Below are positions 42,815 to 52,448 of a DNA stretch of 64,000 bases, piece after piece. The position numbers and the translations under genes were made by a program. Below the pieces are notes generated by a model. It searched no databases, had not been told where the DNA came from, and saw only the letters and a list, made by a program, of their open reading frames with translations. Origin of the DNA: an uncultured Pseudomonadota bacterium (GTDB lineage Bacteria > Pseudomonadota > Gammaproteobacteria > Steroidobacterales > Steroidobacteraceae); contig CAIRLC010000022.1 of assembly GCA_903879335.1 (NCBI GenBank), forward strand, positions 1 through 64,000, written 5' to 3'. The first letter of the stretch is position 1, and each line of letters starts with the position of its first letter.

Positions 42815-42911
42815 GGAAAGCCTCGACCCCGTCTGGGGAACCCATAATTTTACGGCCCCAAGTCCATACGTAGCAAGGCGGACCGCCCCGAATGGGGCGG
42901 TTCCGGCCTGA

Positions 42912-43454
42912 TCAGGGCTTCCTCGGGCTCCGGGCAGCCGACTTAGGCTTCGTCGCTTTTTTCTTGGCCGGCACCTTGACCTGGGCTTTGGCCTTGAGTG
43001 CCACTTTTGCCTTGGACGGGGCCGCCGCCTTGGTCTTGGCCTTGGCCTTGGTCTTGGTCTTGATCTTGATCTTTGCCTCAGCCGTAGCCGTAGCCTTAGC
43101 GTTGGTCTTGCCAGCCGATTTCGTGGCACCACCCTTCTTCTCGGGCTTAGGAGCGGCCTTCGGCTTCACTGCAGCAGCATCAGCCTTTTTCGCGGCCTTG
43201 CGTCGGGTTGATGAGTCCGTGTCCCCCGCGGGCTTGTCTTCACCACCGGCCAAGTTGCGCTTTTTTTCCTTGTCAGACTTAAAGTCCGTTTCGTACCAGC
43301 CACCACCCTTCAGACGAAAGACGGGAGCGGAGATCAGGCGAACCAACTGCGGTTTGCCACACTCCGGACACTGCTTGAGCGGCGCTTCGCTCATTTTCTG
43401 CATGGCCTCATGGTGTACGCCACAGGCCTGACATTCATACTCGTAAAACGGCAT
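42912..43454 (-). CDS. FmdB-type zinc-ribbon protein with long Lys/Ala-rich tail
   Basis: The 180-residue product starts [12 protein letters not shown], the hallmark of FmdB-type putative regulators, with a second CPEC pair completing a four-Cys zinc ribbon (about residues 8-32). Residues 1-65 match the whole known domain. Residues 85-180 form an unusual tail of about 40 per cent lysine with Ala, Thr and Pro, resembling histone H1 or Pseudomonas AlgP, and likely binding nucleic acid. ATG 43454 aligns with the family start. It lies between clpB and aspS, as fmdB-type genes often adjoin aspS in proteobacteria. Confidence 0.88.
42915..43202 (-). repeat. Low-complexity DNA encoding the Lys/Ala-rich tail of the FmdB-type protein
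   Basis: On the plus strand the stretch is dominated by TTGG/CTTGGCC/TCTTGG units (for example around 43033-43070), read on the minus strand as AAG, GCC and ACC codons giving KTKTKAKAK-type repeats. Imperfect units vary in third positions, so the array is old or under selection rather than a recent tandem duplication. Confidence 0.9.
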
Positions 43455-51317: not shown

Positions 51318-52448
51318 TTAGCGGCCGCGACGAGCCGCCTTTTGAGCCGGACGCTTTTGCGCTTTCACAACCGGCTTCACCTTGGCCTTCGCCTTGGCTG
51401 TGGCCTTGGTCTTGGTCTTGGTCTTGGTCTTGGCTGAAACCTTTGTCGCGGCCTTGGCCTTGGCCGACGATACCTTGGCCTTTGCTTTCGACTTGCTCTG
51501 AACCGCTATGGAAGCCTTAGGCTTAGCTTTGGGTTTCGCTTTCGCCTTGGCTCGCTTCGCCTTGGCCTTAGCCTTGCGCGCGGCAAGCAATTTAACCATC
51601 GCAGAGCCCAACTCAGCCGGTGAATGCACCGTCGTGACGCCGGCTGCTTCAAGCGCCGCGAACTTGTCCGCCGCAGTACCTTTACCACCGGCAATCACGG
51701 CGCCGGCATGACCCATGCGCTTACCCGGAGGGGCGGTAACACCGGCGATATAGGCCACGACCGGCTTAGTGACGTGCTTGCGGATGTACTCAGCACCCGC
51801 CTCCTCGTCGCTACCGCCGATCTCGCCGACCATGATGATGCCCTCAGTCTTCGGATCAGCCTCAAATAAGGCTAAAACATCGACGAAGTTGAGACCGCGC
51901 ACGGGATCGCCACCGATGCCGACGCAGGTCGTCTGACCGAGCCCAAGTCGAGTGGTCTGGAATACCGCTTCGTAGGTGAGCGTGCCGGACCGGGACACAA
52001 TCCCAATCTTGCCTGGCTTGTGAATAAAGCCAGGCATGATGCCGACCTTGGCCTCTCCCGGCGTAATCACACCCGGGCAATTGGGGCCGACGAGTCGGGC
52101 GTCGTAACCTTTGAGCGCTTCCTTGACGCGAATCATGTCGTTCACCGGAATACCTTCGGTGATGCACACGATGAGTTTGATGCCCGCATCGGCCGCTTCG
52201 AGGATCGCGTCGGCCGCGCCTGCGGCCGGCACATAGATCATGCTGACATCAGCGCCGGTAGCCTTGACCGCATCATGCGCGGTATTAAAGACCGGCAGGC
52301 CCAAATGGGTCTGACCCCCACGGCCCGGAGTCACGCCGCCAACAAGCTGGCTGCCATAGGCAATGCACTGCTCGGAATGGAAGGTGCCCTGCTTACCCGT
52401 GAAGCCCTGGACAATGATTCGGCTTTTCTTCGAAAGGAGAATACTCAT
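51318..52448 (-). CDS. sucD: Succinyl-CoA synthetase alpha subunit with 86-residue Lys/Ala-rich tail
   Basis: Residues 1-290 are a normal SucD: CoA-binding fold ([18 protein letters not shown]), [10 protein letters not shown] and the phosphohistidine loop [11 protein letters not shown] (His247). With SucC it catalyses the substrate-level phosphorylation step of the TCA cycle. E. coli SucD ends near residue 289, whereas here the frame continues with [20 protein letters not shown] and similar to residue 376, a basic, disordered, histone-H1-like extension without homology to the family. No stop codon intervenes. It follows sucC by 11 bases. Confidence 0.95.
51321..51578 (-). repeat. Low-complexity DNA encoding the SucD tail
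   Basis: The plus strand is rich in TTGGCC/CTTGGTC/TTGGCTT units, giving AAG-GCC and AAG-ACC codon pairs on the coding strand (KAKAK and KTKTKTK runs). Its composition and unit sequence strongly resemble the tail of the FmdB-type gene at 42915-43202, but order and spacing differ, so a direct copy is not evident by eye. Confidence 0.9.

Follow-up and report, generated by a model that had tools for sequence, protein, structure and literature searches.

In the window analysed here, a stretch of 64,000 nucleotides from an uncultured gammaproteobacterium of the family Steroidobacteraceae, an FmdB-type zinc ribbon protein and SucD end in lysine-rich tails that are probably disordered polycationic extensions with an ancestry in this family, kept for their charge and flexibility and serving as putative tethers to a polyanion, a reading that draws in part on analogy with known systems. 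A first-pass annotation of the same DNA had noticed a Lys/Ala-rich tail on the FmdB protein and a similar one on a second, unrelated protein 8 kb away. Both are real: the segment it marked (42912-43202) comprises the last 96 codons of fmdB and the stop codon, and the second protein is SucD, the alpha subunit of succinate--CoA ligase (Table 1).

The fmdB gene lies on the minus strand between clpB and aspS, upstream of the latter. Its product matches TIGR02605 over residues 1-52 with 72.9 bits, above the family cut-off of 31.3, and shares with other members a core that starts at the initiator methionine and a low-complexity C-terminus. The C-termini of FmdB-family proteins are known to vary, and what distinguishes the protein described here is the distal block, which is strongly basic in the host family whereas it is neutral or Cys/His/Ser-rich elsewhere. 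The 119 residues beyond the 61-residue core consist of a proximal part, of a type also present in other families (the proximal halves of host-family FmdB tails have fractions of 0.218 for K+R and 0.205 for D+E), and of a basic K/A/T-rich stretch formed by the last 95 residues, which would have been appended terminally to an older linker, neutral and of low complexity.

The sucD gene is located 8 kb upstream of fmdB, behind sucC, and encodes a complete core (450 bits against a TIGR01019 cut-off of 353, profile positions 1-286). This core is conserved throughout, whereas the basic disordered tail, mostly 40-138 residues long, is typical of the host family and was unseen in the outgroups read. 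In the source genome the tail begins directly after the last core helix, and residues 309-376 are predicted to be disordered, the AlphaFold2 model (from a shallow alignment of five rows) having a pLDDT of about 29-38 across residues 311-376. A literature search for lysine-rich tails on SucD returned no description of them, and when the SucD tail was used as a protein query against three genomes it matched only itself, a result that is given no weight as evidence.

Table 1. Features in the window and related genes elsewhere in the source genome.
Feature	Position	Strand	Basis
fmdB-family zinc ribbon gene, 180 aa	42912..43454	minus	TIGR02605 E=1.6e-20; Zn_ribbon_8 (PF09723) E=7.4e-16
FmdB core, residues 1-61, two CxxC motifs	43272..43454	minus	profile matches, aligned core
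FmdB proximal tail, residues 62-85, mixed charge	43200..43271	minus	comparison with family and outgroup tails
FmdB distal basic block, residues 86-180, K/A/T-rich	42915..43199	minus	block type seen only in host family
AAGACC-type hexamer tract, FmdB tail	43029..43073	minus	TRF period 6, 7.5 copies, 92% match
sucD, succinate--CoA ligase subunit alpha, 376 aa	51318..52448	minus	TIGR01019 E=3.2e-135, residues 3-288
SucD basic tail, residues 290-376, 87 aa	51321..51581	minus	40% K+R, D/E absent
AAGACC-type hexamer tract, SucD tail	51381..51433	minus	TRF period 6, 8.8 copies, 85% match
SET-domain protein gene	contig C17; L009:5629-6321	minus	(K[A/T])5 pattern; basic C-terminal tail
Histone-H1-like protein, almost wholly PAKK/AAKK repeats	L034:3009-3359	plus	sequence reading

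A DNA pattern encoding (K[A/T])5 was searched over the 3.14-Mb source genome and found in three places, each of them an in-frame C-terminal tail (on FmdB, SucD and a SET-domain protein), while the reversed pattern used as a control had 0 matches in the same genome; the FmdB and SucD tails are hence not a product of chance. A looser KxKxKxKxK pattern added two weaker places, a basic stretch midway along a small protein and the short, basic end of a large enzyme. In a census of basic C-termini of at least 40 residues, for which about 770 kb (24%) of the genome was read, only FmdB, SucD, the SET protein, topoisomerase I (TopA) and one H1-like PAKK protein were encountered. Taken together, the pattern searches and this reading show that the tails are few and specific in the source genome; the genome-wide enrichment the first-pass annotation had proposed to look for is modest, at five proteins in the part read. 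The H1-like PAKK protein and the C-terminus of topoisomerase I resemble the tails in being Lys/Ala-rich, basic and of low complexity; proteins of these two kinds, however, are known to associate with nucleic acids, and SucD is an enzyme of metabolism.

The distribution of the tails follows the boundary of the family, taken here as the GTDB-type family of the source genome and compared with outgroups from other families of the same order, many of the compared genomes being metagenome-assembled. Of 71 same-family relatives, 23 have the (K[A/T])5 pattern, as opposed to 2 of 46 genomes from the order's other families (Fisher p = 1.8e-4). Basic SucD tails of at least 30 residues were found on 45 of the 57 family genes read, in 19 genera, and the last 25 residues of FmdB are basic in 56 of 60 family genes, a few genes of these sets coming from named records, which may be the same as some of the numbered genomes. 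Among 20 outgroup SucDs of the same order, chosen for long open frames, none has a basic tail of at least 30 residues, and they end 0-4 residues past the core with the exception of one with a neutral 22-residue end. For FmdB, the basic end is found in 0 of 32 same-order outgroups and 0 of 55 other gamma- and betaproteobacterial proteins; apart from a few His-rich paralogues, the 32 proteins from the order's other families have neutral tails in which K is mixed with D/E and S. The SET gene respects the boundary drawn by the SucD and FmdB tails: it is present in 64 of 70 family genomes versus 2 of 32 from other families of the order. The family SET proteins have basic tails of their own, variable in length. 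Other basic-tailed hosts in the family are sporadic (Obg, L17, PrmB, phasin, aconitase and a CoA synthetase, with N-terminal basic versions on RsfS and one transporter-like protein), and in 27 family loci spanning the sucD-fmdB region no other gene was seen to carry a credible basic tail. The "lineage habit" of adding basic tails to different proteins, as it had initially been put, is therefore borne out at the family level for FmdB, SucD and SET, the remaining hosts being more scattered. That two tails share one 64-kb window was correctly seen; as an indicator of tail density it says little, because sucD and fmdB are long-standing neighbours, separated by 8-15 kb in many genomes of the family and also in outgroup genomes without tails.

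Within the family the SucD tail is dispensable, since it is missing or reduced to 3-13 residues in genera g9, g12 and g13 and in genome G042, and since the congeners G002 and G014 (L235, L234) have a diverged, tail-less SucD (E of about 1e-110 to the source-genome SucD), which suggests replacement of the tailed protein. A weakly resolved tree of SucD cores in which one outgroup row was kept fits a single gain with several losses. The tails would have arisen in the ancestry of this one gammaproteobacterial family.

Within that family the charge of the tails is held while their sequence turns over. Pooled SucD tails have fractions of 0.27 K, 0.13 R, 0.26 A and 0.010 D+E (D+E in the core is 0.093), so K+R amounts to about 40% in the tails compared with 9% in the core. 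Within genera the median identity is 0.94 for the core versus 0.61 for the tail, in which 25% of the columns contain gaps, and the K+R fraction of the tail differs by only 0.03. In every tail K+R lies above a base-shuffle null (z 2.5 to 5.4), and lysine and arginine exchange with GC3, lysine falling as GC3 rises (rho = -0.73 for SucD tails), despite which the K+R total stays within 0.29-0.48. The lysine shares of SucD and FmdB tails correlate across genomes (rho 0.79, or 0.64 after accounting for GC3, both uncorrected for phylogeny), and no conserved motif survives within the tails. The conservation of charge under fast sequence change points to selection for sticking to a polyanion such as DNA, RNA or polyphosphate, and from these sequence comparisons we conclude that charge and flexibility, rather than sequence, are probably what selection acts upon. 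The fixed charge fits selection rather than drift, and with it the part of the initial proposal that had invoked selection, although a neutral ratchet biased against acidic residues may also have produced the tails.

The other part of that proposal was repeat spread, according to which an AAGACC-like hexamer expanded by slippage or was copied between genes and left functionless K-T and K-A tails behind. Such a history is improbable as an explanation of the tails. In its favour, the FmdB, SucD and SET tails of the source genome share DNA similarity beyond a synonymous-codon-shuffle null (p = 0.004, 0.02 and 0.002, the first of these for FmdB against SucD), and two contig ends in the congener G014 carry (AAGACY)n as a microsatellite that is apparently non-coding. 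However, among the 38 genomes with both tails the similarity between FmdB and SucD tails exceeds this null (p<0.05) in one only, the source genome itself, where it is due to the AAGACC tract, and never does so in the 37 others; furthermore, the family tails are mostly aperiodic, their charge stays at about 40% K+R with lysine and arginine exchanging, and in 19 genera they keep to one small set of proteins, the other genes in the region having none. Spread of a DNA repeat was therefore rejected as the family-wide cause. The earlier observation of related-looking DNA units is right locally, in the source genome only, as the AAGACC tract recurs there in three tails (FmdB, SucD and SET), and we conclude that hexamer slippage added locally to the tails of the source species. 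The similarity of the two tails in the window is mostly convergent composition. In G014 the hexanucleotide forms a long (AAGACC)n/(AAGACT)n array with stops and indels (L300:1-450 and L301:1-190), and this array is probably an assembly break point.

Like chlamydial SET enzymes, for which methylation of H1-like proteins has been proposed, the family-specific, basic-tailed SET protein could methylate the Lys-rich tails and regulate their binding. This is unlikely, even though the boundary of the SET gene matches that of the SucD and FmdB tails and the SET proteins are themselves basic-tailed. The match amounts to one shared family boundary and not to many independent co-occurrences; in G020 and G066 SET accompanies SucD tails whose K/(K+R) goes down to 0.31, G033 has kept the tail while the SET gene went undetected, and G109, from another family, has SET together with a His-rich FmdB tail. 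The interchange of lysine and arginine moreover argues for electrostatics over lysine chemistry. Literature searches on FmdB zinc ribbons and on bacterial SET and H1-like proteins yielded nothing relevant. It is equally doubtful that the tails bind acidic patches on partner proteins, for instance citric-acid-cycle enzymes, or anchor at acidic membrane lipids. K[A/T] tails do occur on the citric-acid-cycle enzyme aconitase (G026) and on a propionyl/acetyl-CoA synthetase-like protein (G040), but the hosts as a whole have varied functions (zinc ribbon, SET, Obg, L17, RsfS, PrmB) and a partner-specific interface would predict a conserved motif.

In the favoured reading, each tail would act as an electrostatic tether that holds its folded domain beside a polyanion, be it nucleoid DNA, RNA and ribosomes or polyphosphate, a role of the kind proposed for the tails of AlgP and PhaF. 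Binding to the nucleoid is plausible; RNA or polyphosphate is mildly favoured as the partner in that Obg, L17, PrmB and RsfS, four sporadic hosts, are ribosome-related. The KPAA tail of AlgP is required for the spacing of polyphosphate granules, peptides from it bind DNA, and PhaF has the same tail (PMC9239181), while in E. coli the lysine-rich disordered regions of YihI and RNase R are bound by polyphosphate (PMC12345225). The FmdB and SucD tails resemble those of AlgP and PhaF from Pseudomonas in being disordered, basic and K/A-rich with variable repeats, and in both cases related tails sit on two proteins of differing function. In contrast to AlgP and PhaF, the family's tails mostly lack KPAA arrays and a common DNA unit, and their hosts are unrelated housekeeping proteins. 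The description "AlgP-like" in the first-pass annotation consequently stands for composition, both proteins ending in a K/A-rich low-complexity basic C-terminus, and falls for homology, since neither FmdB nor SucD has an AlgP-type N-terminal domain or tandem KPAA in its tail, where KT and KA are the dominant dipeptides.

What is conserved family-wide is charge alone, and this on a core metabolic enzyme whose chain normally stops directly behind its fold. The family thereby offers a natural comparative system for bacterial polybasic tails, with about 19 genera that have the SucD tail, several that lack it and sister families without it. As a caution, similar tails in one window need not imply DNA copying. 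The boundary common to the tails and the SET methyltransferase is a testable lead. A far-reaching extension, to which we give very little credence, would be a cell-wide system of polycation tails that tethers housekeeping proteins to the nucleoid or polyphosphate, with the basic-tailed SET methyltransferase modulating the binding; if it existed, the tethered hosts would include a citric-acid-cycle enzyme and translation factors.

Two further observations concern fmdB. In the outgroup genomes G144 and G098 (L355, L372) a second FmdB-type protein adjoins the first and has a His-rich tail ending in HTHSHGPGCGHKH, which is perhaps metal-binding. In the window, the plus strand contains a 179-residue open frame antisense to the fmdB tail (42892-43431), rich in A, L and V, which looks like an artefact of Lys/Ala codons on the opposite strand.
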